A stretch of 64,000 bases of DNA, from contig NC_089864.1 of assembly GCF_036373705.1 (NCBI RefSeq), positions 1,296,501-1,360,500 on the forward strand, given 5' to 3'. The notes below the pieces were generated by a model. The model ran no database searches and was not told where the DNA came from. It saw only the letters and a list, made by a program, of their open reading frames with translations. Origin of the DNA: Amia ocellicauda. Taxonomy: Eukaryota > Chordata > Actinopteri > Amiiformes > Amiidae. Positions 15,305 through 51,199 of this stretch are shown here, one piece after another. The number at the start of each line of letters is the position of its first letter. Positions within the stretch are counted from its first letter, which is position 1. The translations under genes were made by a program, and so were the position numbers.

Positions 15305-15391
15305 TTATTTTCTCTTCTTCCTCCTCTTTTTAGATTTCTTATTCTTCCTGTTCCGATTCCTTTTTGACCTTGCACCTTTCTTCTGCCTCTG
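15305..15391 (-). CDS. USP terminal exon: Lys/Arg-rich tail
   Basis: Last exon of the USP gene, ending at TAA (15305-15307). It encodes about 28 residues, of which about 20 are Lys or Arg (for example [11 protein letters not shown] at the end). The pattern predicts nuclear or nucleolar targeting, or binding to nucleic acid. It is joined in phase 0 to the preceding exon 18478-18584, an acidic and polar linker. The acceptor may be at 15391 or 15388; both keep the frame. Confidence 0.7.
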   Translation of the reverse strand, partial: QRQKKGARSKRNRNRKNKKSKKRRKKRK

Positions 15392-18300
15392 CTTGAGAAC
15401 ATAAAGTGCAAATAAGATTACACACAGGGTTTCACACAAATTGTCATATTAAATTTTTTCTATTAAAATTTGCCTGGCAAATTAAGCAAACCAAAACCTT
15501 TCCCTAAAAGCAAAAACCTTTACTCTCTTAGCTCTTACTTATAACTAGGGCCATGTGATTTTATGATTTTGCTTTTAAACAATGTCTGTTATGCAAACCA
15601 CAGAACATCTTAAATAATGAGCTGGCAGAATGGAACCACCCCTGCCTTGATTTATGTTGTCCTAGGTGCTCTCTCTTTAACTGAAGTTTCTTTGGAAAAA
15701 CTTTGGAAATTGGTCAAGATGACTACCTGCCAGAAAAAAACTATCTTATAAGACCTATGATTCTCTTTTGTAATTAACTGGGTGCAAAGGAATCAGTTAC
15801 ATTCCCTAATGTTATTTCTACTTGTAAATTTGGAACTGAAACTTTTAGAAAGCATAATTCAGCAGGTGACACAAAGAGTGTACAAGGTCTATAGAAACTG
15901 TAGTAAAACCAGAATATATACATGCAAAATAGAAATGCACTTGATATGTATTGATAAGAGATGGACCTATGAGACGTGCATACAATGTTTATGTGCATTG
16001 ATCAGAAACCATTAATTAAATCCTGTGGTGAAGGTAATATGCGTCTTAATTGTCAAAAACAAAATATGACCAAAATACAACCTCTCACAATTCGTAAGGA
16101 AATATTGAAGACAAAGTAAAGGTTTTGTTTCATTTGCAAGCAATGTTTTTCTTACCAGGGTAGTGTGAGTAGTTTACAGTATAATGTGTGAGCAAAACCG
16201 TTTGCTGTAGCGATTATAATTGCATTAGCTGATTATAATGATTTAGTGTTTTTTTAATATACATTTATTCCCGTTCAGCATTATTATACTATAATATCAA
16301 TGCCTAGTATTTATTAATGTATTACTGTGTGGCACAACAACTTAAAGTCTGTTACACACATTTTAATAAGTGCCCAATTAATCTACCTATTAATCAACTA
16401 ATGCCCATTGATTAACCGACCAAATATTTTAATCGACTGACAGCCCTAGTAGGAAGTGATTGCTACCCAATTGTTGTGCCAAAAATTGCAATCACTGTAT
16501 TTGTGTAAAAGTGCATAAAAATTCAAAGGGTACACAGATATCTTATCATATAGCCATCAGAATGGTATAGGATAGACATGGTAGAGTCCTGACGTGATCA
16601 GAAACCCTAATGAAGATCAGTTTTCACTTTGAATATCAATGACAAATGTCTGGGAATGAGAGCCATGATGTGTCTATGTACTCTACTGCTATGTCAAATG
16701 TATTCCCCTGAGGGAAGACCACAGATGGCTGAACCAACTTTCTGATCTTCATGCTGCCTGTTTCTGTTGCATTGTCTGGATTGGAGGCCTGGGCCCTAAG
16801 TTGTGGACCCCTAGAATGTATTTTCTCCTTTAACAGTCTGACATCCTATTGGAGTTTTTTTTTCTCTCTCCTCCATGCCTAAGTTTATGTTTTTACTAAT
16901 CAAAGTCTTGTATTGTTGTCTTAACCTGCAACGCCCTCTGCTGCACCTTTGTGAAGGGCACTATACCAAATCAAAATGTGGTTGATTCAGGAGAGCAAAA
17001 ACCAAAACAGCATTAAATTATCGTTAATCTTTTGCAAAGTCAAAGCATCTATGAGTACAAGGTGGTGGTGGAAAATAACAGTTATATTCAATCACACAAA
17101 ATTGAATATCAGTATCTTGACTTTTTAGACTTTTTATTTACAGAGCAGATATATTCAGTAACAGTATATTTTAGGGTTCACTTGCTATGCATGAATTAGC
17201 TATTAATAATTCACTAACAATGACAAAAAATACATATGTATTTTGCACAGAATGAGGATTACACATATCCCTTATTAATTGCTAATAATGGGTGTTAATC
17301 TGCACCTCGAAATCTGAAGTAAGGACACTTTTTGCCCAAAGTAGCAGCTAACAAGCTGCTTGTTAATCATCAATACCATAGTAATTAAACAACCATTCAC
17401 AGTGAACTGAGAAAATATCCTGAAGACCTTTTTTTGTTCACCTTGCCAGTAGATCTGGGACAAAGGTTTTCTGCAGCATTTTGATACATTAGGAAAGTAG
17501 TCTAACTCACTACTTCTTGTTGCAGTTTTGTCTTCATTGTCAGTGTTAAAGTGATGTGTTTTGTATTGAAAAGAGATTTAATGACTTGGAAACAAATGAA
17601 TCAGTTAATTAATGCATGTTATATCATAATGTTTTGTAATTTATTCTTTAGTATTTAACTAATGTTATTATCTATACTTAATAGTCTGGAAAAAACTGTT
17701 AAATCTTAAATGTTAATATTGTTTTTACTTTAGAAGAGGGTGCAATACCCTGTATTAGCGACTAATATCCTATTTATGTATGCCTCCAGGACATTTTCTC
17801 AGTTCACTATGATTGGTTGTTTACTTACTACAGTATTGATGTTTAACAAGCAGCTTATAAGCTGCAACTTTGAACTATTCCTTGCTTCAGAATAGGGGAT
17901 GCTAATACTTTATTAACACAGAACTAGCAAATCAATAAGGCATGTGTGTAATACAGTCCTTGTAAAACTTTGTTCTGTGTCAATAAATGCCTTTTTAGAG
18001 AACAGTTAACGGCTAATACAAGCAGTGAGGTGCAGGGGAAGGGGGGTGGGTGTTTGTGGCGGCCCTTTTCATTCCCCTGCCCTTTTTTTCTGAGGTGTCC
18101 CAATTGTCTCCCGATCGCCCCTCCCCCGATCCGTGCCGCAATCCGCCAACATCCCCCCGCCCCCCGGACTGTACTTTGTCAGCACCCCCTGGACTGAAGT
18201 GCCCCTTCGTTTGTTTCAGCCACTGCCCCCCTGCAAGGCTGTGCATGTCATATAGTATGCATAGTAGGTGAACCCTAAAATGAAGTGTTACCAATGATTC

Positions 18301-21300: not shown

Positions 21301-24300
21301 ACCATTAGATCAGATCCACAAGTCACTAACTAGTGTGCTTTAAATGTGATGGGGCAAAGCTTCAAACTTATTTTGGTTATTGAATGGGAATCTTATCATT
21401 GATGACTGGACCTTTGAAAAATAGTGCTACACAGTGGACCCTTTTCATCACTTAAATAGTGTACAAAACTAATATGAAATCTATGGCATACAATTAGAAA
21501 TATCTGAGTATTATTAGCAATCAGGCAACAGTGTCCTGAAGTCCTCATTTGAGCCAGACCTATTCACTTCAGCTTCTAAAACTTTTTGCCTATAGAGTGA
21601 AAAATATCATTCACTGTAACCTGTCACATTGGACTAAGTTACAACTGCTCCTCCTCTAAAATTAAACCAGCATTAATGAAAACATAATTGAATAAAATCA
21701 TTATGTTACCTTATGTACTGCGTATGTGTATTTTCTGTGATGGTCAAATTGTTCTGTACAAAACCACAAACACATTTATATAAATTTCAAGCAAGAGACA
21801 TGCAATACAAAGAAAAAAAATAGGGAAAGGAATGCAAAGCAATACTTTAGTTTAGGCAGAGACAATTACACTTACACATGTTAAGTGATCTCTTAATTCC
21901 AGAGCTGTATGTCAACAAAGACAATTAAATGATCTACACATTTTCATTCACAAGCAGTTACGCATGAATGTGCAGGTTAAATCTAGATAATGATGAATAT
22001 GCATCTAATAAATTGATAAACCATAAATCTATGAAGAGCTAATGGGAATTCTGTATACTAACATCTTTGCTCAAAATATGAAAATACACAGAAAATGAAT
22101 GATTTAATTCGGAGAGGAATATAATTAGCCAGTTTAAACATGACAGTGCTGTAACGCACTCCAAAACATAATGTTATATTGGAACATAGGTAGAAAGTCC
22201 AAAATTATAAAGATTATGGTTTTATGTGTCTTTACTTGTTGCGATGGTGTATAATTTAGATGTATTGCACCTTTTCGTTTTGATTCTATCACAAAAGTGT
22301 GGCAATGTGGGCAAGTTGCTCCTAGTGTAGACTACGCCACCCTCCGTTTAATTAGAGGAGAGGGACCTCTATTCTCATATCTATATCAATTAGCCCATCC
22401 AATATTTGTACCTTCCCACAGCAAGTATACTACAATTAAATGGTTGCACTTTCATTTTCAGTTTAAGCTATTTTTAGAGAACATCATTTATACTTTAATC
22501 AATTCTAATATATTTCAAATTTTAAATGTAGAGATTCTCATACAGTAGATTACATTCCAAATAACTGAAATGTATGATAATTTAAATATACATATATTGA
22601 TATTAGATAGATATTAGAGTTTTGATATTGATTTTTAGCAGCAGAATTGCTATGCAAATTGAAATAAAATTCATCCCTGAAGAATGGTCAAATACTTCAC
22701 AATTTAGAAATCAGATACTAAAGCATCAGTTTAAGAATCTCCCTGGTCCTGAAGAGCCACAATCCTGAAGGTTTTCCAGGTCTCTCTAAATCACCAATCA
22801 TTGGATACCTTAAACACAGGGACATTTTGCCTAATGAAGCCCCACAATTGGTTCAATTAAGCAGTTAATGATCTGGATAGAACAAAAACCTGTAGGCCCT
22901 GTGTCTCTGCAGGAGCAGGGTTAGCCACCCCTGACCTTAAACAACCTCTTGAGTAGGGGTAGAAACATACATAGTCTCCTGGAGCAGTGGAATCTGACTG
23001 TCCTCTGTAATCTTCGCATTTTCCTGCAGCAAAAACATATCCCTGTGACTCAACCTAAAAATAGTTTAAAGGAAAATGACACAGGAAATTTAAAAATATA
23101 ATAATTGAAAATAAGAAATGCCTCTCTTAAAATTGCTTGTAACGAGAACACATAGAAAACTAGTGCAGAGCAACATTATCAATCAAGTTGAGCAAAGGTG
23201 TCTGTTAAATTTACTGAGAATAATACGCCTATACACACGTTTAATACAATACTAAAGCTGCTTTTTTGAGAATGCAGAAAACAAGTTGAAAAAGAACAAA
23301 TAAATTACGAAATGATGTTTAAGGCTGAAAAAGTGTACTGGACTAATACCATGAAACCAGTTATTTCTGAAATCACCATTCTGTTTACCAAATAATGTAC
23401 ATGTTAAAATATCCTGTAAATAAATCTTACCTTGAATAGGGCATTGTGCTGCTTAATGTTTTCTGAACCATCTATTCCATCCTGAACAAACAGTAAAAAG
23501 ATTACAATAACTTGTACTGTAGCCTTCTTGTCAACTTCTCTTCATAATGTTAGGAGACTTCAGACCAGGATCCGGATTAAATCAAAACTTAGACCTACCT
23601 CCTAATAGAAAACTATAAACCTGTACATCATAGCAATTACATTTATGATTAGAAGAAAGTGGCATCTTACTAAGAATGAAGCCACAACTGAGTACAGTTC
23701 TGTAGTTTTGTATTAGCGTGTGGGTCAGTTTTGATTTAATCCGGCCCACATCTAATATCCAGGTGCCTGAAAAAAACCTGACAAAATGTATAATGATAAA
23801 ATACAAAGTGAACTTTGCACCAAAAACACATTATTGCTTTATTAACATCACCTTACAGAACTGTATGACCACAGTTGCTTCTCTGATTTTATTTTCTCAA
23901 AGCATGCAATACCTGCAAATCATACAATATAAAACATTGCATATACATATGTTTTCAATCTTAATATAATGCTATTGATAGAGGGATGGAAGAGATATTC
24001 ATGGAGATGAATGTTAAAAGAAGTGAGGCAAGTGAGTTTCAGTGAAGATTTGTGTCCTAGTGTTCGACATTTCCAAAAATTGAGATATATTTTATTTTAA
24101 ATAATTGAAAAATGGGGCATCCTATCAATTAAATAAAAAAACATGCATATGAAAACCGAAGAGAGCAAACTATTTGAAAAACTCTGCTCTAGAATATGTT
24201 GTGATACTTTCAGAAATAAAACAGATGAATCAGCTACAAGCAACTAGAGTGTAGTTGTAGAGAGCAGAGTAAAGTATTTGTGTAGGATAGACTATCAATC

Positions 24301-27300
24301 AGGGTCAATGCTTGGGTAAGTCCCAAATAAAGATTACTATGTTGAAAAACTGTTGAGTCATATGTTCAATCCCAGTTGGGGACACTACTATTATACCTTT
24401 GAGCAACGTACTTTGCCTAGATAGCGATGTCTCCTACGAAATGTGGTAATAATGAAAAATAGATTCTAATGTAAGGAAATAATACTTACCTTAAGAACTT
24501 GAGAATCATTGAAGCTGTACCAGTTGTCATCTTCAAATGACTTGATAAAGGCTTTATAATGTCCACCTCTGTAACTCCCTATGTGTCTGCAAACTGCATA
24601 AAGTTCATATTTGCGAGGTTCCTGAAATATCCAAATGTTTGACAGAATTTAAGCAAGATCTGAGATACTAAAATAAAAATATTGAAATCCAATGTGATAC
24701 TTTCAACATATACATGAAGATAAGGAAATAATGCAGATATCAAGTAAGTGTATAAAATCATGCACTGAATTATCTGTATTAGTAATTAATAATTCAGCCA
24801 TATTCATTATTATCAAATGTTAAAAATGTTATCATATGGTTGTATCATAAAAAACATTATTTCCATAAAGTGTATTTATAGCAGGACTTTATAACATGTC
24901 CTTTTCAATAAAAAATATCTTACAGGAATCCTATGCATAGCAGTACATATGTACTTGAAGTGATTTATTATGTAGACTTTCATATTTTGAAAAAGCAAAC
25001 TTCAAAGATAAACATGGCTCTCCACTGGTCCACTAGGTTTGAGTGACGGTTCTTCCTAACCCAGTCAGTCGATGCCTTTCATGATTTTGAAGACTTGGAT
25101 CAAGTCCCCACGTAGTCTCCTCTGTTCCAGGGTGAAAAGGTTCAGGTCCTCAGTCTCTCAGTAGGACATTCCCTTCAGACCTGGAATAAGTCTGGTTGCT
25201 CTCCTCTGAACTGCCTCTAGAGCAGCGATATCTTTCTTGAAGTGTGGAGCCCAGAACTGTCCACAGTATCCAGATGAGCTCTAACTAGTGCATTGTACAG
25301 TCTGAACATCACTGCCTTTGTGCTCAATTCTACACTTTTGACAATATACCCTAGCATTGTGTTTCCCTTTTTTATTGCTTCCCCACATTGTTTGGATGGA
25401 GAAAGTGATGAGTCCACATAGACTCCTAGGTCTTTCTCATGCGTTACTTCATCTAGTTCTGTTCCTCCCATAGTGTAATTATAGTGGACATTTTTGTTAC
25501 CTGCATGTATTACCTTGCACTTGTCCACATTGAATTTCATCTGCCAGGTGTCGCCCACAACTGAATATTATCTAAGTCCCTTTGAATAGCCTGTGCTGCC
25601 GAGATTGTATCTGCTGAGTCGCCTATTTTAGTATCATCTGTAAATTTGACAAGTTTGCTAACTATCCCAGAGTCCAGATCATTAATATACATTAGCCATG
25701 ATCTGCCTCGTCTACACCCACTCTAAGGATATGGTTTTCATTGAGATGCTCCTCTATTTTCTGTCTAATTATTTTTTCCAACATTGTACAGGTGATGCAG
25801 GTGAGACTGATTGGTCTGTAATTTCCTGGCTCAGTTTTGTCCCCTTTCTTGTGGATTGGTTTGACATTTGCTGTCTTCCAGTCAGTTGGCACATCCCCTG
25901 TTCTAAGTGTCATTTGGAATAATTGAGTTAGCGGCCTATAAATAATTTCCCTCATTTCTTTAAGTACTGTTGGAAATATCCCATCTGGCCCAGGTGATTT
26001 GTTAATTTTAATTCTGCTCGTCCCTTTAGTACCTCCTCCTCATGTATCCTGATCTCTCTTAGGGTTTGACTGGACTGATTGAAAACAACAAGATGGCTGC
26101 CTCTAACCTGTACTGTCCTGTGTCTGTCTTTGGCAACTTGTAAATCCTTTAAACTTGTTAGTTGAGTAGTCTGGGAGATAATATATATTTTAATTCTCCC
26201 GGCGCCCCATATGGCTAGTACACTGGGTGAAACCACAGTAAAACCATGGCAATGCAGATACAAAAAGCAGCCCCAACCTTATGAAAGTCTGCACCAAAAT
26301 GTAAGTTTCACTACTTAAAAAGACAACAGTGTTTTTTTCCAGTTACCTCCTCAAAATGTAGTGTAAGTGGGATTTCCACTGGGCAATTTATCTTGACGTA
26401 ACTCCTTTGACCATAGTCATAATCAAATCTCTTCAGGTGCAGAGTCAAGATATGAGGCATGTCTGCTACCTCAGTCCTCTGAAACAAATTTAAAAGAATG
26501 AAGTACTTATTATACTTTATAATGCTGCAAAGCTAATTAGAACAACATTTTGGATGCTATTCTTCAAAAAGGATAACATTCAAGGAGAATGTAATCTTTA
26601 ACACATCCTCAGCATAGGGGACACTAAGCATGTTCTTAAATTGATAATTACATTAAACTGTAATTGAAAAAACAAATCTCACTGTTTCTGTGTCTGTCTT
26701 ATCATTGCATCGGTCACAGTACAGCTGATTGTCTCCAGACAATTTTGAAGATCTGAAAAATTCTTCAAGGCCATTCTCCTGTACAAAAAAACATTGAATA
26801 TAACAGTAACCAATGAAATAACAGTAAAGATGGTTCATCCATTTGATTGGCTATTAAATCCCAGAAAAGACACACTCTGATACCTGACAGCGATTTTGAG
26901 TGATCCCTGATACAAAAACAGATTGACTCCTGATACCTGACACAAAGTTTGAGTGACACCTAATATAAAATTCGAGTGATACCTGATACCTGACAAAAAA
27001 TGCGAGTGACACCTGACATAAAATGTCAGTGATGCATGAGAGATGACAATAATCATGCTGCTTGATGCCAAATAAGACTGACACCCGAAGGGTGATACCA
27101 AATATGAGTGATAACTGAGGACTGAACGTTAAACTTACTGAGGGCTGATCGCAAAACTAAGAGATGCAGGACAATTGAGCTGAGGAGTGAGGATGTCGTA
27201 ATATGGACACCGTACCCCAGACCCCTTCCTGTGAATTCCTCATTCAGCTTCCCTCATTTTTGCCCTCCTCCCTCCACAAATTCCTGGCTATGCCTGTGAT

Positions 27301-30300: not shown

Positions 30301-33300
30301 AGGGATTGAAAAGAAGACAATAGCCGAAAGTACAAGAAAGCTTAAGTAAGGAGTCCAGTTCATAAGCATAAGTGTAATACACAATACAATTATTTCAGGA
30401 GGGCAGACCACCCCAAACACATGTAGGTAGAAAGTAAATAGTGTAGTACATTACACTTAACATGTTATGTTATCCTGAATTAGCATAATATTTAACAGTA
30501 CTGAGTCACAGTCTTTGATCTTTTGGACAATGAGACAATTCAAACTGGAGGATAAATATAAGTGGTTGGTACTTACAACACTGTAGATTTCATTGGAATC
30601 ATGGAGGATATCTACAGGAAGCGGAATATCCAGGAACTTGCTCATGTCTGTGTTGCATTCTTCACAACCCAAACACTTTGTAGTGTTCATTAAGGTGCCC
30701 CGGTAGAGCTAAGGACAGGGAAAAAGTAAATGTTATTGTGCTATTTCCTACATTACAAAAAATATGTCCTCAAGAGATGTCAAAGGTGTATATATGTGAA
30801 TATATGTGAAAATAGAAATCCTTGGTCTCAAACCATTGTCGGGTGAAAGAAACCAAGAGTTGATTTGATTCAGGTATGCTGAAACTCAGCTATAATACGA
30901 CTGCAGAGTTAAAAGTGGAAAATAAGATGACACTCCATTTTACAAAGTGTTGCAGTCAACTCAATCAAGTTACACAGCTCAAAGTCCAGGCAATTATGAG
31001 GCATCATCTTTCCTAACTACCTGTAACTTTAGGGTTTTAACGTTAAAAAGTCCATCAGTCCCCAAGGCTTTGGTATACAGCTAACAAGGTGCAAAGGGTC
31101 TTTTGGTTGGTCCTCAGCTAGACTGTCCTAATGCTTTGAAGTGTTTACAAGTGGATCCTGTGCATTTGTGCTCGAGTCCCCCAGGCTTTCCTTAACCAGC
31201 CAGGGCTGTTCATATGAACATAAGAACATAAGAAAGTTTACATTCGAGAGGAGGCCATTCGTCCCATCGTGCTCATTTGGTGTCCATTAATAACTAAGTG
31301 ATCCAAGGATCAACCAACCTTCTTTGACTGTTTGAACTGCCTCTCTGCTAAACTGTTAGACAGAGCATTGATTTCAGATTAGACATTAATGTCTAATGTT
31401 CTGTAACAAGAATTGAATGCTTTCAAAAATAGTCATGTTAACATATTATATTTATCAATTAACTAAATGAACTAAGTGAACAGAAGAAAAATCTACATCA
31501 AATCCATATTTGGTGTGACCACCCTTTGCCTTCAAAACAGCATCAATTCTTCTAGGTACTCTTTCACACAGTTTTTGAAGGAACTCGGCAGGTAGGTTGG
31601 CCCAAACATCTTGGAGAAATAACCACAGTTCTTCTGTGGGTTTAGGCAGCCTCAGCTGCTTCTCTCTCTTCATGTAATCCCAGACAGACTCGGTGATGTT
31701 GAGATCAGGGCTCTGTGGGAGACATACCATCACTTCCAGGACTCCTTGTTCTTCTTTACGCTGAAGATAGTTCTTAATGTATGTTTGTATGTTTGTGGTC
31801 GTTGTCATGCTGCAGAATAAATTTGGGGCCAATCAGACGCCTCCCTGGTGGTATTGCATGATGGATAAGTATCTGCCTGTACTTCTCAGCATTGAGGAGA
31901 CCATTCATTGTGACCAAACCCCCAACTCCATTTGCAGAAATGCAGCCCCAAACTTGCAAGGAACCTCCACCATGCTTCACTGTTGATGCAGACACTCATC
32001 CGTGTAGGGCTCTCCAGTCCTTCAGCGAACAAACTGCCTTCTGCTACAGCCACATATGCTGCACCTGCACCTGCTGCCATTTTTCTGCAAAAGTTCAATA
32101 CATTTGGCTTTGCCCACTTTTGCCCCCTCGTGGCACAGGGGCTGATACTCTACAAAGTATATGGGTCAGTATGTTAGTCTACCTGTCTGTCTGTAAAACA
32201 GTCTCTTTGCCATCGCCTTCTTTTATTCAGTGCCAGAATTACTTGGTAATACAAAGCCATTAGCAAGATGGTTAAGCCCACCTGCTAAATAAATTAGATG
32301 TTGTTGTCTATTACTTTTTATTGATGTGTAAAGAATATAACTAATATAACATAACTAATGATATGTGCTGTATGTTACTTTTTGGTTGTAAAATTTGGAA
32401 AGGGAAATAAGTAATAAATTACCATTACTTATTGAAATGGAAATCTGAAATAAGGAATAGGGAATAAGGAATCAGCTTGAGGTAAAACACCTCCAAAGCA
32501 AAACTGATTCACCTCCATACATGCCTTTTCAACATGAGCTTCAACTTTTTACTGCTAAACATAATGCTGATGAGCATGTACAGAAAGGACAGTTTTGTTT
32601 TCATTTTCATGTTATGCTGAGAGAAGAGGCTTCTTCCTTTGAACTCTCATTAACAACAGATATTCATGCAGTCGATGTTGGATGGTATAGTTGAGACCTT
32701 GTATCCTGATGCCTGACTCTGCCCAGGAGTTTTACTTTGACTCCAGAACTACTTTTCTCATAGTATTAACATTTTCTTGCATCCTCTTCTTGGCAAGGTA
32801 GCCACTGTTCCAGTAGCCTTAACTTCCTGATAATGGACACTATGGGAAACTGGTATGTTTAACTGTTTGTGTTTTATAGGCACCACCCAACTTCAATGAC
32901 AATGACAACAGGATGTTGAAGCAGTATTATTTTTGCAGAATCTTATTTAAAGATACTTAGTGATATGAATGAAAGATCCTTTTTGTAACATAACAATATT
33001 ATTTGTCAAACGTGATGTTGTTCAATATAGTTTTTATTAATAACATTTTACATATTTTCATTTATTTTCTTTTCAGTCATATTTGTGTTGAAATGTATCA
33101 GGGGTATGAATATATGTGGAGGCCACTGTGTATAGCTATAGTGAAAAAAGGGCTATTTCATATTGCACGGGTAAACCAGCTGATAATACAATGTACCTTA
33201 GAGACATCACTGTCAACTGCATTCAGTATCCTCTGGAAAAATTCTTCTGCATCTTGTTGTTCGAAGACTAAAATAAAACATACATAATAATTTAATAAAT

Positions 33301-36300
33301 ACTGGTAATATTCAGTATATGTGTTTCTTTCCTCCTGAACAAAAGCCACTCATTTAACTTCATATAAATGCAGAATAATGAGACTAAAACCACATTATTT
33401 TCCTTTCATTTCAATACAAAGCCAAAACAATACAATACATTATAACTGTTAACACTCTTATTTTTTTCTGTATTAAGTTAAATAAACATTGCCCATTGAA
33501 TAATTCGTATTGTTTCAATGTCTGAATGCCGATTAAGCATTGAAGATTCTAGATGACTAAACTGAGTTCAAACTCAGTTTTGTAAGCTTTAGGTTGCCAT
33601 GCAATTGATTTCTGTGAGTCTTCAGTCAGAAGCTTAATTTTTTTTTATGAATAATAATAATAAAATAATGGATCAGGAAACTATCCTTTCATGTGCATGT
33701 AACTCACCACAAGTTATACCAAGGCTAGTTGTGATGCCTGTTGTTTCAGCAGTGTTTTGTCCCTCCTCTAGATTTTTAAACAACTTCTTAAGTTGAAATG
33801 AAATGCTTTCCTCCTTTTCAACTGGCAAACTGAAAAATATAATGAAGATCCACTGTATCAGTTAAGTTTATTATTGTTTTATATATAAATTCATTAAAAA
33901 CATTTTATTATAATTAAACAAATGCTTTTTATCCCTAAGTTATTCAAATTGAAAGCACAATATGTTTTTTTTACTGTAAATTATTAATGTTCTGTGGGCA
34001 GCTCAATGTAGAGAAAACATTTATACATTTATAGTTTTCTTTAACAAATATTCAAATAGTTAGTTATGTTTTTATTGTTCTCTCTTCAATTTGCAATATA
34101 TTTGACAGCTTTAAAGTTGTCTTTAAAAAAACTGCATGTCATCACTACCACTCCCATGACTTCACGCCAGTCTAGCCTAACTAAAACTGAAGTGATACGG
34201 TCAGAAAGTTTGTTTTTAGGTAAGATTCTGGCCACTGTGTTTTGTACAAGTTGCAATTCTTTAAGGGAGTTCTTAGGCACGCCAGCAAGCATAGAGTTAC
34301 AGTAGTTTATATTGGAGAAAACAAAGGCATTAATCAGTTTGTCTGCATCTTCAGGAGTAAGACAAGAGCGAACGCAGGCCACATCCCTGCTGCCACAATG
34401 TTGCAGCAATGTAATTTTGGCGTGTGTGTTAGCTGGGATAGATGTGAAACATTTTGTAATATTGCGAATGTGCTCATCAAAAGCCAGATTAGGATAAAAA
34501 TGATGGCTGGGTTCTTAGACTACTGCAAAGATTGCTCTCACCTACAACCAGTGTAAGATTTGTTTTACTGATGGGTTGAGCAGACTAGCATCACCTCAGG
34601 TTTGTCAGGATTCAGTTTTAAAAAGTTTTGCTGCATCAGATTCTTCACCTCATTTAAGCAATTTGTGAGACATGAATGTAAATGGCGCCACGTTCTAGGA
34701 AGTGCGCAAAATCCCAATGAAAGCATGTAAATGCAAAACAAAATTGCCCCCAAAACGGAGCCGTATGAAATTCTACTTTTTGGTGATTGTCTGATTTTGA
34801 TGTACTGTTCTCTATCAGGTAAGGTAGGATGCAAACCATCTGACCCCTACAGCCTTTTCCAATCTGCTCAAGAGAATTGTGTGGTCAATGGTATCGAAAG
34901 CAGAACTGAGATTTAGACAAGGATTGAAACAGCCAGAGTTGGCATTCATGAGTAGGTAGTTGACCTCTCTAACAAGTGCCTTCTCCGTGCTATGCCTAAA
35001 TCTAAAACCAGACTGGAAAACCTTCTGTAAATTGTTAGTGAGCAAATGGTTTTGCGGCTGATAACAACAGCTCTAAAACCTTTGACAAGTATGGTTAACA
35101 ATTGCAGCCTAACAAACAGGGATCTTATTTGTTACAGGTTTACATGGCATCTATGCAAGTGGGTCCAAAATGTTTTTGTTTATGGAAAAGTACCTAAATA
35201 AGTACATGCAGGAGATGTCCACAGACCACACAATAAACAATATACTTTAACATAATATAATCAGAATCCATTTTCAAAACTGCTTACCTGGTGAGGGTCG
35301 CAGGGACACCGGATCATCAATAGTAATACATTGCTTTATTTTCTAATTTGCAATTTAATAATAACATATTTATTGAAAGAGGGAAAACAATAGATTTTAT
35401 TTCAAAGTGATATAACAAAGCAAAAAACTGTCTAATTGCAGGGTACATTACAAACTAATGTATTAATTTAAATATTGAAAAGGGATCAACATGTAAACAC
35501 ACATATCAAATAAAATACAAAATTGAGTGATGAATACACCCACAAGTGACAAGCCAGGCTTTCTTACTTAGCATCAACTGCCTCAGGTTTGGAGGGGTGG
35601 AGGTGGGGTGATGGGTGTATTTACAAATTATGATCAAGAAAATCATAGAAATTGAAACTTTTACCATACCTGCAAATAGTATCTCTGACCTTCGGGTCCA
35701 TGAAGAATGTCTGCAACACTGTGTTTAAGTAACAGGTTGCTCCCTGGTTATATAAACCATTGTAACCTAAAACAAATAATATTAAATACAGTGCTTTATT
35801 ATAGCAAAAAGCTTTATAATTAAGCAAAAAGTTACCCTGTCCTTTAAATCAATACTTAACTGCAGACATTGAGAGTATAAGGGTTTATTTCACCCTAACA
35901 CAATTATTCATTAATTAAAAGGACACATTTTCTACATGTTATAATAGAATAGCATTGGGACCAAAGATCACAATAAACAAAGTTGGAAACAACTAAACAA
36001 GAATCGCAATTCATGGACACCTGCATCATACCTTTACAATCTAGTTTTATCAGCTGATTCGCTGGAGGAATGTAATACTTAATGCCAAGCTGCAAGTTCT
36101 TTCATTGGTTGTTCATATTTAATCAAAAGAATCTAAAGTTATAAACACCAAAAATATTTTAAAATGGTGCCATAATGGGAAAAAAGATTATTGATTCTTT
36201 ATACATTTTTGTTACAGAGTAAATGCATAAGTATTTGTGCAGAAAAATATAAAAACTTTGTTTCTTTCTAATTTGCAAAATATTCTGCCATAAATGCCCC

Positions 36301-39291
36301 TCCTGGGTTGTAAACTTTGGCTTTCAAACATTTCTTTCCTCACTCACTGCAACTGGCTCATCGCCATTCTCTTCAATTTTACCCACACTATATTCAGAAG
36401 CTGCAAATATTGCTTAAGTATTAATAAAGATGCATAGTATATATGTAAAACAAATAAGCGATGTAACAAAACAAAATGTACTATATAAATATTTCTGAAA
36501 TTGTATTGTCATATTGTATTAATGTCTGTGTTTAGTTTAGTATTGCCAAAGGAAGTTGTCATTGCTGCAGTAGTACTAGGAAACACAGTGTTTGACTACG
36601 TGTATTTGTTGTTCTTGGGGTGTTTTGCCTGCAGTTTTGCCTGCAGTTTTGCCTGCAGTTTTGCAAGTGAAATGCTGCTCAATTGGATTCAGGTCAGGTG
36701 ACTGACTTGGCCATTACAGAACATTACACTTCTTTGCTTAAAAAAGTCTTGGGTTGCTTTCGCAGTAATAACAGGAAGAGCAGGAATAACTGATTCTTAT
36801 TACTTATTTGATCAGGAAGAGTGTGTAAGTACAATATATACAGTTAGGTCCATAAATATTTGGACAGTGACACAATTGTCATCAAGAACAAGCAGGAACT
36901 AAAGACACTGCAGTGCAGGTCTGGCAGAGCATCACCAAGGAAGAAACCCAGCATCTGCTGATGTCTATGGGTTCAGACTTCAGGCAGTCATTGACTGCAA
37001 AGGATTTGCAACCAAGTATTGATACTCACAATTTAATTCATGAAGATGTTAGTTTGTCCAATTTCTTTTGAGACCCTAAAACTAGGGGGAACAGATATAC
37101 AAATGGGTGTAATTCCTACACCGTTCACTCAATGTGAATGTAATTACCCTCAAATTAAAGATGAAAGTCTGCATGTAAAGCACATCTTGATGTTGTTTCC
37201 TTTCAAATCCATTGTGGTGACGTACAGAGACAAAATTATGGCAATTGTGTCAGTGTCCAAATATTTATGGACCTAACTGTTGCAAAATGGCAACATTTAA
37301 AATGTGGTTTACAGCACAAAATTAAGAATAACAATAAATACAAATAATATTTAACGTTGGTTTCATTATATTTAGTAAAATATAGTGTATACATTAGCTT
37401 CTGGTAATATAGATACAATATCTATTTAGCAAAGCCAGAAAGTTTAGTTTAAACTTTAATTGCATTCAATTTAGGAACAACGTGCCCTTCTCGAAGTGTT
37501 CTAGACATATAACGACCAAATACCAAATACATCTAGTTTTCATCAAGAAGGGGTGGCTGCAATGATATAACACTTTCTATACAATCAGGTCCTTCAACAC
37601 TGACTGAACAATGTCCTTCTCCAGTTTTTACATCCGTTACATATTCATGTTAACATACGCATGCCTTTGAATAAGAAATAAGAATCAATATTGACTTTCT
37701 TTGTCAGAATACTGTATACATGAGGCATGCAACTTGCAAGTATATATTTGTATTTGTGGTTTTACTTCAAACAAATGAACTGACTAGGGGGTTTACTCTT
37801 TCTTCAGCTCAAACAAGCAAAACAATGTCATGGTGTCCAGAATTGCTCGTCAGGAGAGGGCGCTCAGTGTAATCGTTCAAAATGATCAGCTCACAATATT
37901 TATATATACACTCACCTAAAGGATTATTAGGAACACCATACTAATACTGTGTTTGACCCCCTTTCGCCTTCAGAACTGCCTTAATTCTACGTGGCATTGA
38001 TTCAACAAGGTGCTGAAAGCATTCTTTAGAAATGTTGGCCCATATTGATAGGATAGCATCTTGCAGTTGATGGAGATTTGTGGGATGCACATCCAGGGCA
38101 CGAAGCTCCCGTTCCACCACATCCCAAAGATGCTCTATTGGGTTGAGATCTGGTGACTGTGGGGGCCAGTTTAGTACAGTGAACTCATTGTCATGTTCAA
38201 GAAACCAATTTGAAATGATTCGACCTTTGTGACATGGTGCATTATCCTGCTGGAAGTAGCCATCAGAGGATGGGTACATGGTGGTCATAAAGGGATGGAC
38301 ATGGTCAGAAACAATGCTCAGGTAGGCCGTGGCATTTAAACGATGCCCAATTGGCACTAAGGGGCCTAAAGTGTGCCAAGAAAACATCCCCCACACCATT
38401 ACACCACCACCACCAGCCTGCACAGTGGTAACAAGGCATGATGGATCCATGTTCTCATTCTGTTTACGCCAAATTCTGACTCTACCATCTGAATGTCTCA
38501 ACAGAAATCGAGACTCATCAGACCAGGCAACATTTTTCCAGTCTTCAACTGTCCAATTTTGGTGAGCTTGTGCAAATTGTAGCCTCTTTTTCCTATTTGT
38601 AGTGGAGATGAGTGGTACCCGGTGGGGTCTTCTGCTGTTGTAGCCCATCCGCCTCAAGGTTGTACGTGTTGTGGCTTCACAAATGCTTTGCTGCATACCT
38701 CGGTTGTAACGAGTGGTTATTTCAGTCAAAGTTGCTCTTCTATCAGCTTGAATCAGTCGGCCCATTCTCCTCTGACCTCTAGCATCAACAAGGCATTTTC
38801 GCCCACAGGACTGCCGCATACTGGATGTTTTTCCCTTTTCACACCATTCTTTGTAAACCCTAGAAATGGTTGTGCGTGAAAATCCCAGTAACTGAGCAGA
38901 TTGTGAAATACTCAGACCAGCCCGTCTGGCACCAACAACCATGCCACGCTCAAAATTGCTTAAATCACCTTTCTTTCCCATTCAGACATTCAGTTTGGAG
39001 TTCAGGAGATTGTCTTGACCAGGACCACACCCCTAAATGCATTGAAGCAACTGCCATGTGATTGGTTGGTTAGATAATTGCATTAATGAGAAATTGAACA
39101 GGTGTTCCTAATAATCCTTTAGGTGAGTGTATATCATAATAGTTATTGATTTAAGATAAATACTGTATTCATATAAATTGGAAATCTAAACTATAATTAT
39201 TTTTCAAAAACAAAAATAAAATAGTAGTAATAGCTTCAGTAAGATTAATACATGTTAATTCATTTAATGTATAGATATATAGATATTTTCG

Positions 39292-39326: not shown

Positions 39327-39584
39327 TTACCAACTACACTAGAGAGATTATGCAGCAGATATCGGTATAAGGGCTACGAAGCACATTTAATTTACAGATT
39401 AAAGTCAAGATAGATATCAAATATTTAAATCAAATCGGATAATTTTCTTTCGTTGCTTTTTTCGCTCAAATAATACACTCGTCTCAACAGAGACGTTAAC
39501 TAACCTAAAAATCAGGTTCAATACATACATAGGTTTAATAATGTTTTTACCTTTTCTAGCCGATGATGTCCATGAAGAGTACAT
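15305..39584 (-). CDS. Ubiquitin-specific protease (USP, C19), compact 13-exon gene
   Basis: A cysteine protease that removes ubiquitin or a ubiquitin-like protein. Exons in gene order: 39551-39584, 35670-35766, 33708-33829, 33197-33267, 30577-30708, 26683-26778, 26347-26478, 24490-24621, 23431-23481, one near 22971-23054, 20757-20812, 18478-18584, 15305-15391. Phases agree throughout except around exon 10, where I could not settle the junction (two in-frame solutions). The Cys box is [24 protein letters not shown] follows. The zinc-ribbon cysteines are in KCLGC and LYCDRC. The His box is YRGGHYKAF with [16 protein letters not shown] closes the fold. The protein starts only 12 residues before the Cys-box exon, is about 390-400 residues long, and ends in a very basic tail (about 28 residues, mostly Lys/Arg). 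It resembles fish USP47-like proteins, but this is not true USP47, which is far longer. Confidence 0.85.
16300..16452. mobile_element. Probable hAT element terminus
   Basis: ATTAATCAACTAATG and TTAATCGACTGACAGCCCTAG resemble the ends of fish hAT elements that start CTAGGGCTGTCA. A partner end near 15547 (CTAGGGCC) is only a weak match. In USP intron 12. Confidence 0.4.
19194..19896 (-). mobile_element. Deleted Tc1-like element
   Basis: Both ends carry the inverted repeat ATGGCCAAAACTATGTGGAC / ATGGCCAAAAGTATGTGGAC. The minus strand retains the transposase N-terminal and middle region in broken frames, including [12 protein letters not shown]. At about 700 bp it is a non-autonomous deletion derivative, in the USP intron between exons 12 and 11. 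Confidence 0.8.
21070..22740. other. AT-rich USP intron, nothing recognised
   Basis: Part of the USP intron between exons 11 and 10. No USP exon, transposon terminus or structured repeat was identified. Confidence 0.35.
22740..22945. repeat. Interspersed repeat next to USP exon 10
   Basis: Begins TCCTGAAGAGCCACAATCC and ends GCAGGGTTAGCCACCCCTGA, a phrase common in fish repeats. It abuts the tentative USP exon near 22971, and its presence may have altered that exon's 3' boundary. Confidence 0.5.
25015..26270 (-). mobile_element. CR1-like LINE reverse transcriptase, degenerate
   Basis: Minus-strand frames read canonical non-LTR RT blocks: [34 protein letters not shown] and, after a shift, [16 protein letters not shown] and [18 protein letters not shown]. 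Several frameshifts and stops make it dead. Located in the USP intron between exons 8 and 7. Confidence 0.85.
26870..27065. repeat. Degenerate ~30-bp tandem repeat
   Basis: Imperfect repeats of a phrase like GAGTGATACCTGATACCTGA with A-rich spacers, six or seven units. It lies just upstream of USP exon 6 on the minus strand and makes spurious minus-strand open frames. Confidence 0.6.
28020..28100. repeat. Cluster of GGATCCTA(C/G) palindromes
   Basis: AGGATCCTA-type words occur several times within 80 bp, giving overlapping small hairpins. No function inferred. Confidence 0.5.
28540..29165 (+). mobile_element. CR1-like LINE ORF1 esterase fragment
   Basis: The plus frame reads [33 protein letters not shown] and, after a stop, [19 protein letters not shown]. 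These are the GDS(L)-like and GTND blocks of the esterase domain found in CR1 LINE ORF1. Internal stops show it is a relic. In USP intron 5, opposite to the gene. Confidence 0.75.
29185..29385 (+). mobile_element. tRNA-derived SINE
   Basis: GCACTGTGGATTAGTGGTTA (A-box region), GGTTTGAATC (B box), TGTACCCTTGAGCAAGATAC, then CTGGATAAGAGCATCTGCTA and an A-rich tail. The copy is full length and shows the structure of the family whose relative destroyed the class I alpha-1 exon at 11826. Confidence 0.85.
29562..29846 (-). other. Unassigned open frame in USP intron 5
   Basis: A 94-codon minus-strand frame with protein-like composition: an acidic half ([19 protein letters not shown]) then a basic/hydrophobic half ([19 protein letters not shown]), ending TGA. 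An acceptor-like TTGTAG lies before [10 protein letters not shown], and a possible donor after GAVS. The flanking USP exons 5 and 6 join in phase without it. It could be an alternative last exon of the USP gene or a relic of another gene. I do not recognise the family. Confidence 0.35.
31206..31375. mobile_element. CR1/SINE-type 3' repeat
   Basis: Contains GAACATAAGAACATAAGAAA and GAGGAGGCCATTCGTCCCAT, phrases I associate with dispersed repeats of early-diverging ray-finned fishes. In USP intron 4. Confidence 0.6.
31455..32115 (-). mobile_element. Degenerate Tc1-like transposase
   Basis: Minus-strand frames read [31 protein letters not shown] and [20 protein letters not shown], i.e. parts of the DDE domain including the second Asp and the Glu block. 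The reading is broken by frameshifts. In USP intron 4. Confidence 0.85.
34086..35060 (-). mobile_element. L2-like LINE reverse transcriptase, degenerate
   Basis: Consecutive minus-strand pieces read [61 protein letters not shown] and [17 protein letters not shown], the ordered L2/CR1 RT blocks. The FxDD catalytic block is lost. Frameshifts throughout. In USP intron 2. Confidence 0.85.
36624..36664. repeat. 14-bp direct repeat (TTTTGCCTGCAGTT-like), 3 units
   Basis: TTTTGCCTGCAG recurs every 14 bp three times, then degrades. Minor repeat in USP intron 1. Confidence 0.7.
36841..37279. mobile_element. Tc1/mariner MITE with ~39-bp terminal inverted repeats
   Basis: The left end CAGTTAGGTCCATAAATATT matches the reverse complement of the right end AATATTTATGGACCTAACTG; the match continues inward through TTGGACAGTGACACAATTG with few mismatches. 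The core still reads [14 protein letters not shown], a transposase-like C-terminal phrase. The left end is flanked by TA. Confidence 0.85.
37909..39129 (-). mobile_element. Intact Tc1-like transposon
   Basis: 1221 bp, with perfect 29-bp terminal inverted repeats (37909-37937 and 39101-39129; CACTCACCTAAAGGATTATT...) flanked by TA dinucleotides. It carries one uninterrupted transposase gene. It lies in USP intron 1 in the same orientation as the USP gene. A truncated near-identical copy is at 57129-57975. Confidence 0.95.
37941..38981 (-). CDS. Tc1-like DDE transposase, full length
   Basis: A 346-residue transposase that cuts and pastes its element at TA sites. The N-terminal paired-like helix-turn-helix spans about residues 1-115 ([20 protein letters not shown]). 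The catalytic Asp residues are in VAWSDESRF and [12 protein letters not shown]; the third acidic residue is the Glu of NPIEHLWD, fitting the DDE(34-36) class typical of Tc1. The glycine-rich [11 protein letters not shown] is present. No stops or frameshifts, and the usual length for the family. Activity is plausible but not proven. Confidence 0.95.
   Translation of the reverse strand: MGKKGDLSNFERGMVVGARRAGLSISQSAQLLGFSRTTISRVYKEWCEKGKTSSMRQSCGRKCLVDARGQRRMGRLIQADRRATLTEITTRYNRGMQQSICEATTRTTLRRMGYNSRRPHRVPLISTTNRKKRLQFAQAHQNWTVEDWKNVAWSDESRFLLRHSDGRVRIWRKQNENMDPSCLVTTVQAGGGGVMVWGMFSWHTLGPLVPIGHRLNATAYLSIVSDHVHPFMTTMYPSSDGYFQQDNAPCHKGRIISNWFLEHDNEFTVLNWPPQSPDLNPIEHLWDVVERELRALDVHPTNLHQLQDAILSIWANISKECFQHLVESMPRRIKAVLKAKGGQTQY
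39296..39328. repeat. (TTTA)n microsatellite
   Basis: Eight or more ATTT tetramers in USP intron 1. Confidence 0.9.
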
Positions 39585-41597: not shown

Positions 41598-42690
41598 TTA
41601 ACATCCTCCAGGCAATTTCAGCACAACAAAGATGGTAGACTTGTCCTTGATGTGGTGGTCTGAAAACTTGTCAGAGTCCTCCATTTGCCTGTCAGCAAAT
41701 ATGAGTCTTAACTCATCTGGGTCTAGAAAACAGTATCATACACACACTTTAATTAATGAAAACTACTTTAATAGTTAAATTAATTAGAGAATGAATTATA
41801 TTCAGGATATTGCAATGCAGTGGTGAGGTCGGAGGACTTCCAATAGAGCTGGCACACACAAATGCATGTAAGAATATAATTGTTGCTAAATTAAAAACAT
41901 ACAAAACTGCAAAACAAATTTTAATGAACAAAAACAAATAAACAAGGTCTGATTAAAAATATAGTTTTGGTTTTACATACAGTCAGTGAGAGAATTGATA
42001 TGAGTTGAGTTGGCACTGAAACTCTGATAGCTGTACTTATCTGGTGTCCATCAAGAAATAATAAACTAACAGGTAAGCAAGAGGACTTCAATGATCTCTC
42101 GTTTTAAAACTTTATTTTAAATGTAAGATATTCCAAACTATTTATCTCAGATGTATTTTAAATAAATAAGTATAAGTTTAAGTATAATTAAGGTAAGAGG
42201 TTTTAAACACAGAATCCGGTAGGTTAGGCTTACATCAGAGCGCATAAAATGTCAACTGAATGGTTTATTTGAATTATTGTTAATGACCTAACATAGCATA
42301 TGAAGTTCAAATCTTCCCTTATACAATTACGATTTACAGATTTTATGGAATTTTTAAAGTAATGCATTTCACAAACAGTCCAGCCAAGTAACATTTGCAG
42401 CATAAATTAAAAAAGCGAAACACTGGATTTGAAATAAATATCTTTCTACACCACAAAAAAATGTAGTCTAGTGTTTGATTGTAGTTTAAAAATTCATACA
42501 TAGCTGAAGTACTTTAAGTATTTTAAGTGATTAAAACATAAGTACCTGCATTCAGTAACATTTTTCCAATCAGTTTTTTCTTGAATTCCAGGATAGTCAG
42601 ACTATTCATCTCTTCTTCCGACTGACCAACGTCAACTGTTTTTTTATCTCCTCTTATTCCAACAACTATAACTTGATAAATTTTCCCCAT
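41598..42690 (-). CDS. Ubiquitin-like modifier, 89 residues, Gly-Gly-Cys end
   Basis: A single ubiquitin-like domain encoded by two exons (42546-42690 and 41598-41722) joined in phase 1. It opens MGKIYQVIVVGIRGDKKTVD; the second half has LRLIFADRQMEDSDKFSDHH and STIFVVLKLPGGC, then TAA. The LRLIFADRQMED segment aligns with the ubiquitin strand LIFAGKQLEDG, and the LPGG at the end takes the place of LRGG. One residue follows the di-glycine, so a protease would have to expose Gly-Gly before conjugation. A GTGAGA donor just after the stop suggests a 3' UTR intron. It differs from ISG15, which has two such domains. The next gene on the same strand is the USP, about 2 kb downstream. Conjugation is inferred from the tail. 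Confidence 0.8.
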
Positions 42691-42754
42691 TTCACAGCTA
42701 CTGTTCTAAGCAGAGTTCTGTGTTTGACTAAGCTTGTAAAGTTGATACTTTTTT

Positions 42755-42783
42755 GTTTCATTTTCTTTCTTTCTTTCATTTTC
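42755..42783 (-). promoter_or_regulatory. Two interferon-response elements upstream of the Ubl gene
   Basis: On the minus strand GAAAATGAAAC (42755-42765) is a perfect GAAANNGAAAC ISRE, and GAAAATGAAA (42774-42783) is a second core 19 bp upstream, in a run rich in GAAA. They lie 65-93 bp upstream of the start codon, the usual distance for interferon-stimulated promoters. The GAAA run could also be a simple repeat; two exact cores argue for function. Confidence 0.6.
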
Positions 42784-43119
42784 TTTCACAATCCAAAACA
42801 TGTTGATCACATGAGAGCTAATCAACAAGGAAGTAAACGATCTGGACAAAAAACATTACAAACAACAATAAATACATATTATTGTAATATTCATAATTAT
42901 TATATCTTGTAATAAGTCTGTATAATTTTGCACTTCATTATACTGCTTACTCATACATTGCTAGAACTCCTGTTGTTTATGTGTGACTTCCCCTCTGCCC
43001 CCATCCTTTTAGCTCATACCTATTACCACATATTGTCCATACGTGTTACCTATTAGAACTAGGATGTATGATTTGTATTTTATATTAACTGTATATTTTA
43101 ACTTATACACTTACGTAAT

Positions 43120-47180: not shown

Positions 47181-47184
47181 TTCT

Positions 47185-47896: not shown

Positions 47897-50800
47897 ATGA
47901 GCACCGAGAAGCGCTACGACCCCGCAGACGCGACCCTCAAGTTCGTGAGCAGGCGGGATGACATAAGTGGGTCTGATGGCATGTCAGTGTGTTAAAAGAA
48001 ATGTAAAAGTCTGCCGATGTTTGTGAACAATTCAAATGAGTTACGGACATACTTTTGTAACAAGCAAAACGTAGCAATACCTTTGCGCAGTTTGTAGGGC
48101 GGTTCGCTGGTGTGTCCGTCATTGCAGGGATCCAGCGCGCATGGATGAGGTGACCTTCAGCAGCCGGACACTTGTATTGTATTGCATGTGTTAAGGCATC
48201 GTGTTCATTTACATTCAAGTCTGTCAGCTTGGATTTATATACATATTGTTTCTGCATCTGGGGTCTCTAAACAGTCTAAAGGTTATACATGTAATACATA
48301 GTATCGCTATAATGTTGAAACTTTAAACCTATAATTGAAAAAATGTTTTCAAATGATCATGCTCCTCTATGTCTCTGTGGGTCAGGTGACAGGATCAGTA
48401 GTTTAGGAACATTTTACAACATAAAATTCAATATATTTGTGTACGTTGTACCTCTGGCTTCTTCAACTAACTCTGAGCCCGAGCACTATCACTTTCAGTG
48501 TGTCAATCACATATATGTAATAATGTTGCAAGTATAATATGAATCATTTAGATTGCAGAGGCGGAAACAGTTTTTCTCGATTCCTTGAGCACATTTCCCG
48601 AAACAAAATTAACTTTTTCAAAACAATTGTTTTGTTTGTAGTTTGTGGCAAAAGTTAAGTTAGGCTCCAGGGCAGATAGGGTTTGGTTTGGTTTGGTTTG
48701 TTGTTTGATCATTTGTGTTGCTTTCCCCACCTGAAGACTGTCTATAACACACCACCTCCTTGCACTGTTCTCCCCTGCAGCTGTGTTGCTGTTGGCCACA
48801 CTGTGATGTTTTGCACAAATGTGGTTGGCATTTGCCTTTTGTATGAAAGCAACCAAAAATGACCTTCTGTTTTGCAGAAATGTGTCTGTTCTGCTCATTT
48901 AGGTTATGGTGTTGGTCATGTGGACCACTGTTTCTTTCACACTGACTAGCAAACAATATTTTTTTTATTGCATTGTTAAAATGGAAAACTCATTCAATAC
49001 ATGTTTATAAATAAATCAATCAATCAGAGGAATAATACTGCTTGTCAGGAGTGTTTTGTATTCACTAATGGCAGCCGCGCTTATTAATTAACCTCTTAAT
49101 TTTTGGTGCCTTCAGAATGGTGTTTCTGTTTAATGTGGAGTGAACTCTTCACCATTGTGTTGTTTTCCGAGTGACTGGTATCCTGTGAAAACAGACTCAG
49201 CTCTCTAATGCTGTCAATCATTTTCTGATGCGAAAAATAAACCGCCCCCCTGCATTTTCATTCCCCCCAACGCCCCCTCCATATTCTGAAGAGGGGATTT
49301 GGTCTGAGAAGCAGACAGTCTGCTGGTCATAACGAAACCGTTTCATTAGAAGCAACACGCGCTAGTGTCTGTACAGTGCACTGATATGCAGCTATCTTAT
49401 ATCATCGGATCTGAACTTCTTTGTCTTTGATAGAACATCAAATATACTATATATATTGGATTAAGCTTTACGGTGTTCTGAACAAAACGGGCCTATTTGC
49501 AAAGAAACAAACCACGACACACAAAGTGGTACAGTTGTTGTTGAGACATAGGATTTGTGGAGATTTAGCTACTATACATAGAGGTGCCTTCATTAGGTGA
49601 TATGATTTAGCATATTGAAACAACGTGCAGAATAAACAACTTCTGTATCTGATATTGTGTTATTTCTATTGTGTTACTTGAATTCAAGCTATTTCCTTTC
49701 AGATGATACCATCTATATGCATGTGAAGCTTACAGAGTTACGCGCTTTTGAAATTGGGCCAGTCCTTTCAGGAGGACATTCCACATTTTTAATGTCAGGT
49801 GAAGAGGTTTTAAGTAATAATACTGCTGGGACATTGTCTTGTATGTTGTGTTTCTTTAGCACTGGATGATGATCCTGACATACTAAGGGCAGAGATGTCC
49901 TGTGGACATGCTGTAACTCCAAATTCATTGACAGCTTGGTGCCGTAGCCTGCTTGACCAGGTAAAATATCTTATGATTATTGATTACTATCTGTAAATGT
50001 ATGTATCTGTGTGCCCTATGGGGTTAAATTGAATAGACAGAGAGATATGCTTTACAGAGTTGGTGTCCAGATTTTATATGTACTCTATATACCCCTAACA
50101 TATATTGTAATTTGCCACCCAGGGCCAATATAAATTTCTTTGCCCTGCACTGAAGGAGGGAACTCTGCAGAAGTGCGGGGCGGTTTGGACATATCAAGAA
50201 GTTCGCAAACTGGCAGTTCTGTCCAGTGAGGAACAGCAGCATTTTGAGGAATTTGTTGCATTGTTGGCTGCCGCTGAGTACTGTGAATATAAGTCTGTAT
50301 GTTGTTTTAATTATTATTTTTTATTAATAATTAACAAACACACAAAAGTTGTATTATTATTTATCCTATTAGTAATTTTTATAGTGGAAACTTAAATAGT
50401 TATCGGGATATTATTATTATTGTTAATCATCACCTTCATTAATAATAATTGGATGCCTTAATTACTTAGTAGCAAGTTCAAATATTAGAGTGGTAGAACA
50501 AAAAACATAACACTACAAAATACAGAGAAACAGAATATACAGGAAATATACAAAATGCAAAGTAGAAAAGGAAAAAATACAATTAAAAACAAAAAAATAA
50601 TCAAAGGTTTTGATGATCTGCCAACTAGACTTTATAAACTGCAATGTAAGAGATTACAGGCTACACATGAAGTCAGTGAAGATCACTTTTCTTGAGATGG
50701 CTTCTGGTTTATAAAGACATTCATTCTTTCTTATTTTTCACTCCAGTGCCCAGGTTGTAAATCATATGTAGAGAGAACAGACCTCACCAATCTGAATGTT

Positions 50801-51199
50801 CACTGCACAATCTGCACTGCGGAGATGGGAAAGTCCTATGAGTTCTGCTGGCAGTGCTTGAACCCGTGGGAAGGACCTGGTCCCCGTTCTGACCGCTGTG
50901 ACAATGATGGATGCACCAATAAAGAACTGGAGCTTCTGCTGAAGTGCCCGACTACATCCTTACCAGAGACAGAAGTGTCCGATTGCCCTTCCATTCGAGC
51001 TTGTCCAACATGTGGCCAGTTTGTTGAACACAATAAGGAAGGGTGTAAGAACATCATATGTTCTAGGTGTCAGGTTGAGTTCTGCTTTGCCTGCCTGGAG
51101 ATTACAGCAGTTTGCTTGCAAACAAGTTCACACTACGCAAGGTGTTCAAAAGGTGTGGCTCCACGGCAGATATCTATGCCTTCTTGGAACCGTCGTTAA
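47897..51199 (+). CDS. RBR-like (RING-IBR-RING2) E3 ligase
   Basis: Predicted to pass ubiquitin or a ubiquitin-like protein through a RING2 cysteine to substrates. Exons 47897-47966, 49703-49798, 49860-49960, 50123-50296 and 50747-51199 (TAA) give 297 residues with consistent phases. Start: MSTEKRYDPADATLKFVSRR. RING1-like part: EMSCGHAVTPNSLTAWC and FLCPALKEGTLQKCGAVW; no CxxC pair precedes it. IBR: CPGCKSYVE, HCTICTAEMG and YEFCWQCLNPW. RING2: CPTCGQFVEHNKEGC, IICSRCQVEFCFACLE. The expected catalytic Cys is in EGCKN, where the usual His two residues on is Asn. Intron 2 would be only 61 nt. It recalls a fish RBR family often annotated as DDB_G0292642-like. ATTAAA follows near 51211. Confidence 0.85.
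48000..49690. other. RBR intron 1
   Basis: No exon or complete transposon recognised. A short G+C-richer segment at about 49200-49345, with AACGAAACCGTTTCATT, might be regulatory. The open minus-strand frames near 48550-48950 lack any family signal. Confidence 0.35.

Follow-up and report, generated by a model that had tools for sequence, protein, structure and literature searches.

A ubiquitin-like modifier gene clustered with USP and RBR-like genes beside MHC class I in Amia ocellicauda: a candidate conjugation system

The 64,000-nucleotide stretch of the Amia ocellicauda genome analyzed here (the window, C21:1296501-1360500 of the 988-Mb host assembly) carries a trio of ubiquitin-pathway genes linked to the major histocompatibility complex (MHC), namely a single-domain ubiquitin-like modifier (Ubl), a USP-type hydrolase, and an RBR-like protein. 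A first-pass annotation, made from the letters alone, had placed these genes at 41598-42690 (-), 15305-39584 (-), and 47897-51199 (+), respectively, and had proposed that they form a dedicated immune conjugation system. Our exon models and Pfam matches bear out all three genes at these positions, and a dedicated system is plausible, though unproven. The Ubl and USP genes are co-oriented on the minus strand and only 2 kb apart, while the RBR-like gene is divergent and lies 5.2 kb from the Ubl gene.

Results

The Ubl gene consists of two exons separated by a GT-AG intron:

42546..42690, minus strand: Ubl exon 1, starting from the ATG and ending in phase 1 (GT donor, open frame)
41598..41722, minus strand: Ubl exon 2, ending LKLPGGC followed by the stop (AG acceptor)

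The joined protein of 89 aa matches Pfam ubiquitin at 7.3e-11 over a single domain and ends in KLPGGC, which agrees with the one-domain Ubl ending in Gly-Gly-Cys described in the first-pass annotation. It accordingly has the ubiquitin-type domain with a C-terminal GG by which we judged whether a Ubl is conjugatable. The one-residue extension past GG resembles ubiquitin precursors. Ubl precursors with residues after GG need trimming by a hydrolase prior to activation, as does ISG15, and the extra terminal Cys therefore makes activation of this Ubl dependent on trimming by a hydrolase. When aligned to human ubiquitin, the protein is identical at 32 of 76 positions (42%). Ubiquitin residues I44, V70, L71, L73, R42, K27, K29, and K33 are all kept, K6, K11, K48, and K63 are all replaced, and the tail is changed by R72 to K and R74 to P. 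A fold model of the Ubl was weak (mean predicted local distance difference test score of 50) and was of no help to the domain call.

Two other identities were considered for this gene and rejected. The best genome match of Ubl exon 1 besides itself is polyubiquitin, but that gene is located on C28 and is only 45% identical over the aligned part. ISG15 was rejected as well, as the Ubl has one domain and the two-domain ISG15-like genes are located on C23. The latter form a group at 18.88-18.90 Mb, which consists of three equally scoring two-domain genes at 7.5 kb spacing plus one divergent copy on the opposite strand; the label "ISG15-like" for these genes rests on domain number.

The USP gene was assembled from the following exons:

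39551..39584, minus strand: first exon, carrying the putative ATG (runs in phase 1 into the exon of the Cys box)
35670..35766, minus strand: exon with the Cys box (aligns to the USP47 Cys box)
33708..33829, minus strand: exon joined in phase
33197..33267, minus strand: exon joined in phase
30577..30708, minus strand: exon with the first half of the zinc ribbon, KCLGC (joined in phase)
26683..26778, minus strand: exon with the second half of the zinc ribbon, YCDRC (joined in phase)
26347..26478, minus strand: exon joined in phase, with a genome profile match
24490..24621, minus strand: exon with the His box GGHYKAF and WYSFND (joined in phase, with a genome profile match)
23431..23481, minus strand: exon past the catalytic domain (in phase)
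15305..15388, minus strand: candidate last exon, a Lys/Arg-rich tail running to the stop (AG acceptor and stop only)

Nine exons, spanning 39584 to 23431, have GT-AG borders and join in phase into 289 aa free of stops. They encode a catalytic domain matching Pfam UCH at 1.1e-39, with a GATCYLN Cys box, a CLGC...YCDRC zinc ribbon, a GGHY His box, and a WYSFND box, so that the Cys, His, and Asn/Asp boxes plus zinc ribbon that define the USP7/47/18 group are all present. Past 23431, in the 3' half of the 24-kb USP span down to 15305, no common phase for the exons emerged either by program or by eye. Thus, the USP claimed for this span stands with respect to its boxes, zinc ribbon, and catalytic domain, but not with respect to the joining of its exons past 23431. 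Among solved proteins, the nearest to a 244-aa query of joined pieces is USP47 (4.7e-32), whereas USP18 scores 2.1e-19. The closest genome match outside the window is located on C4, is 56% identical in the last box, and reads as USP47. The window gene was therefore rejected as the genome's own USP47, and it was likewise distinguished from a USP gene on C23, which is a different locus that we take to be USP7. Inside USP intron 1 is an intact 346-aa Tc1 transposase open reading frame (ORF; 37944-38981, minus strand), and a shorter Tc1 copy that is nearly identical by eye is found at 57161-57976 on the minus strand. Two copies this similar suggest recent transposon activity.

The RBR-like gene spans 47897-51199 on the plus strand and encodes 297 aa in five exons:

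47897..47966, plus strand: exon 1 (joined model)
49703..49798, plus strand: exon 2 (joined model)
49860..49960, plus strand: exon 3 with an incomplete RING1, MSCGHA...WC (joined model)
50123..50296, plus strand: exon 4 with CP...KCG and a linker (joined model)
50747..51199, plus strand: exon 5 with the IBR and RING2, the latter including KEGCKNIIC (joined model, Pfam)

Two Pfam IBR families match the protein at 2.9e-10 and 3.9e-10, and no added domains were recognized. Both the IBR and a RING2 with the motif of the catalytic Cys are present, but the initial CxxC of RING1 is absent, so "RBR-like", as the gene had been called, is as far as the assignment goes. The GC motif in RING2 is the site of the RBR catalytic cysteine, and it is kept when RING2 is aligned to ARIH2. 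Among solved RBR proteins, ARIH1 and ARIH2 are weakly similar to the first version of the protein (E 0.012 to 0.023). No relatives of exon 5 were confirmed in viral contigs.

A motif search of the window for interferon-stimulated response elements (ISREs) located a pair of sites just ahead of the Ubl coding sequence:

42755..42783, minus strand: two ISRE-like sites before the Ubl ATG (motif search of the window)

The site at 42755-42765, GAAAATGAAAC, is of the strict form and is 64 bp before the Ubl ATG, while the one at 42774-42783, GAAAATGAAA, is 83 bp before it. The strict ISRE occurs three times in the window, compared to a mean of 0.47 and a maximum of 2 in 30 shuffles. The start region of the USP gene contains three sites of the weakest ISRE form, which is itself over-represented (43 vs. 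17.7).

We also examined how unusual the clustering is within the genome. Profile searches yielded 105 USP, 17 RBR, and 52 Ubl matches. After dropping 12 Ubl matches under the family cut-off and one RBR match at E 0.99, and merging adjacent exon hits by eye, these were reduced to 49 USP, 16 RBR, and 31 Ubl hand-made entries, all of which are lower bounds since they derive from six-frame lists. Of the 31 Ubl entries, the window's alone lies within 25 kb of a USP or RBR entry, and widening the limit to 100 kb adds no other. With a limit of 500 kb, a USP also comes into range of the four ISG15-like entries on C23, and an RBR into range of one Ubl entry on C20. No second Ubl-USP-RBR trio was present among the matches found in the host genome. 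With uniform placement and a 25-kb limit, ~6e-5 trios would be expected and one was observed, although this expectation was calculated after the fact and ignores the normal clustering of genes. None of the 59 E2 (conjugating enzyme) matches in the genome is on C21, in keeping with the first-pass annotation, which had expected no E2 nearby.

It had also been claimed that no other convincing gene separates the three. The interval 15305-51199 is overlapped by 30 stop-to-stop ORFs that are 100 aa or longer, one of which contains RBR exon 5. We scanned the other 29 plus one of 94 aa against Pfam (threshold E 0.01), and 26 of these 30 had no match, while the remainder were transposon-type, consisting of the intact Tc1 transposase and three weak transposase/reverse-transcriptase matches. 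The claim therefore holds for the scanned ORFs, from which a gene built of short exons alone could escape.

The window RBR gene has ten divergent relatives at 1.5-4.8 Mb of C20 (L010-L019), which by eye divide into two groups by sequence. In four (L010, L011, L018, and L019) the matched frame contains a single TGA, which may mark the edge of an intron rather than decay; the frame over L010 is open for 159 aa. L018 and L019 are identical over the aligned stretch. Since MHC class I matches are found on C20 as well, one of them ~40 kb from an RBR relative, it is possible that the window's RBR family has an older MHC link.

The trio is flanked by two immune genes, both of which had been anticipated:

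5003..6271, plus strand: MHC class I alpha domain exons, 2 matches (C21:1301503-1301763 and 1302502-1302771)
60975..61598, minus strand: SNAD1 deaminase ORF (PF18744 2.5e-38)

The second MHC class I alpha exon matches Pfam MHC_I at 1.8e-22, and further MHC class I matches are found on C21 at 0.2-0.4 Mb, 1.15 Mb, 1.28 Mb, and 3.07-3.09 Mb. The Ubl is therefore encoded in an MHC class I region, like FAT10, with MHC class I exons both in the window and elsewhere on the same contig. Large minisatellites with 60-bp and 35-bp units occur before and around the MHC class I exons (1940-2971, 3635-5948, and 6524-6827). At 12173-12757 on the plus strand is a second immunoglobulin-type exon, which is nearly identical to that of the MHC class I gene and has no alpha domain match of its own; perhaps it is a decayed MHC class I copy. 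SNAD1 is a secreted-type deaminase adjoining the MHC class I and trio region, and a word search of the SNAD1 paper found no mention of synteny, neighbors, or ubiquitin (PMC11004436).

Discussion

The gene models, catalytic motifs, Ubl tail, clustering, and ISRE-like sequence described above can be read directly from the DNA; induction, trimming by the window USP, conjugation, and RBR-mediated transfer are inferred. In the most likely joint mechanism, immune signals would raise the Ubl through its ISRE, and the trio as a whole is probably interferon-responsive. A cysteine hydrolase would then process newly made Ubl, which ends in GG-C. The simplest candidate is the neighboring USP of the USP47/USP18 type, and this enzyme would in turn strip the Ubl from its targets. 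Borrowed E1 (activating) and E2 enzymes would charge the Ubl, and an E3 (ligase), possibly the neighboring RBR acting via its RING2 cysteine, would pass it to immune targets. Because ubiquitin K6, K11, K48, and K63 are replaced, the Ubl would be expected to function mainly as a single tag, rather than in K48 or K63 chains. We assign a rough probability of 0.36 to an MHC-linked trio centered on a conjugatable single-domain Ubl, in which the USP trims or removes the Ubl and the RBR protein may transfer it.

Several observations weigh against such a trio. The RBR-like protein has no Cys before residue 70, which leaves RING1 incomplete without its first CxxC. The R72 to K and R74 to P changes in the Ubl tail may weaken recognition by ubiquitin-type E1 enzymes and USPs. 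The Ubl ISRE overlaps a T/C-rich simple repeat (42748-42788), relaxed ISRE forms are over-represented across the whole window (14 vs. a mean of 3.4), and neither a strict nor a relaxed ISRE occurs in the 500 bp upstream of the start of either the USP or the RBR gene. In addition, 10 of the 16 RBR entries are located at 1.5-4.8 Mb of C20 with no Ubl or USP detected beside them. None of the USP matches found is on C20, and the nearest Ubl match found there is ~4.9 Mb from the RBR relatives. A tblastn search of 20 stretches around these relatives, of which 2 were wholly N and 4 partly so, found no credible Ubl (best E 0.48). These solitary relatives thus argue against an obligate trio.

The same C20 genes would be readily accommodated if the trio were instead three separately acting immune ubiquitin-pathway genes gathered in the MHC region, with the USP and RBR acting on ubiquitin or ISG15 and the Ubl used elsewhere. 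This is a serious contender, even if we stop short of calling it probable: the solved protein nearest to the USP is USP47, a ubiquitin hydrolase, and the C23 ISG15-like genes could serve as the partner, but none of the other 30 Ubl loci has either enzyme within 100 kb, and the GG-C tail needs a hydrolase, one of which is encoded just 2 kb away. That proximity would also suit a two-part system, in which the Ubl and USP are modifier and hydrolase, the RBR is an unrelated neighbor, and the E3 is borrowed. The co-orientation of the Ubl and USP genes, the divergent orientation of the RBR gene 5.2 kb off, its incomplete RING1, and its many relatives on C20 alone all favor this arrangement; nevertheless, RING2 has kept its catalytic-cysteine motif, and we consider the two-part system unlikely. 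When this pair and the full trio are counted together, the balance tips slightly in favor of a joint function. Lastly, the changes at R72 and R74 may hinder E1 charging, as would suit a non-conjugated decoy or regulator that binds ubiquitin receptors by its I44 face. However, the Ubl has kept its GG and, like ubiquitin precursors, extends one residue past it; we consider a decoy very improbable.

The dedicated immune system proposed at the outset is therefore upheld in part. The GG-C tail, the complete USP domain, the RING2 motif, the MHC class I setting, the lack of a second trio among the genome matches, and the ISRE-like site of the Ubl all speak for it, as does the interferon induction of a salmon USP47-like gene and RBR clade in the available part of PMC12234341, while the ten C20 relatives without a Ubl or USP and the incomplete RING1 speak against it. 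If the trio does act together, it would constitute a linked modifier-hydrolase-ligase set beside MHC class I with a role comparable to those of FAT10 and ISG15, which would point to more than one origin of immune Ubl systems. A broader proposal, that ray-finned fishes have a further immune Ubl, neither ISG15 nor FAT10, linked to MHC class I with its own USP and RBR as an independent parallel of FAT10, is rather doubtful at present. The trio is a short candidate gene list for fish virologists using interferon-treated cells.

A literature search found no paper on such a Ubl-USP-RBR trio among the matches listed, as judged by title and the start of the abstract, nor is one found in the available passages of a review of fish interferon-stimulated genes (PMC13030082). 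FAT10 is described in PMC6539292 as an MHC-encoded, inducible, mammal-only Ubl, its induction by cytokines is likewise reported in paper abstracts, and PMC10424871 includes Parkin, an RBR ligase (PMC12234341), among its E3s. The window Ubl is similar to FAT10 in its MHC class I setting and in the RBR-type gene beside it, but FAT10 consists of two Ubl domains and terminates in a free GG after CYCI, whereas the window Ubl has one domain and ends in LKLPGG-C. The UBA6-FAT10 complex, as treated in passages of PMC9378703, has no bearing on the window case.

In the Atlantic salmon, according to sections of PMC12234341, a USP47-like clade named USP18-like is the sister of USP18 and is induced by interferon gamma (log2 4.93), while ARIT, a previously undescribed RBR clade with typical RBR structure, is induced by interferon more strongly (log2 13.45 and 11.59). 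By description only, the window USP is comparable to the former, being USP47-like yet distinct from USP47, and the window RBR to the latter, having no recognized added domains and resembling solved RBR proteins only weakly. They differ in that no linked Ubl is described in those sections and ARIT is a typical RBR, unlike the window protein with its incomplete RING1. The trio also recalls the ISG15/USP18 system in pairing a Ubl with a USP of the USP18/USP47 group and in the ISRE-like site just before the Ubl ATG. However, USP47 gives the window USP a better score than USP18 does, and ISG15 consists of two tandem domains with an LRLRGG end (PMC13030082, in part), neither of which is found in the single domain of 89 aa ending in LKLPGG-C. 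Thus, FAT10 and ISG15 are the closest functional precedents for the trio, and its Ubl is a member of neither.
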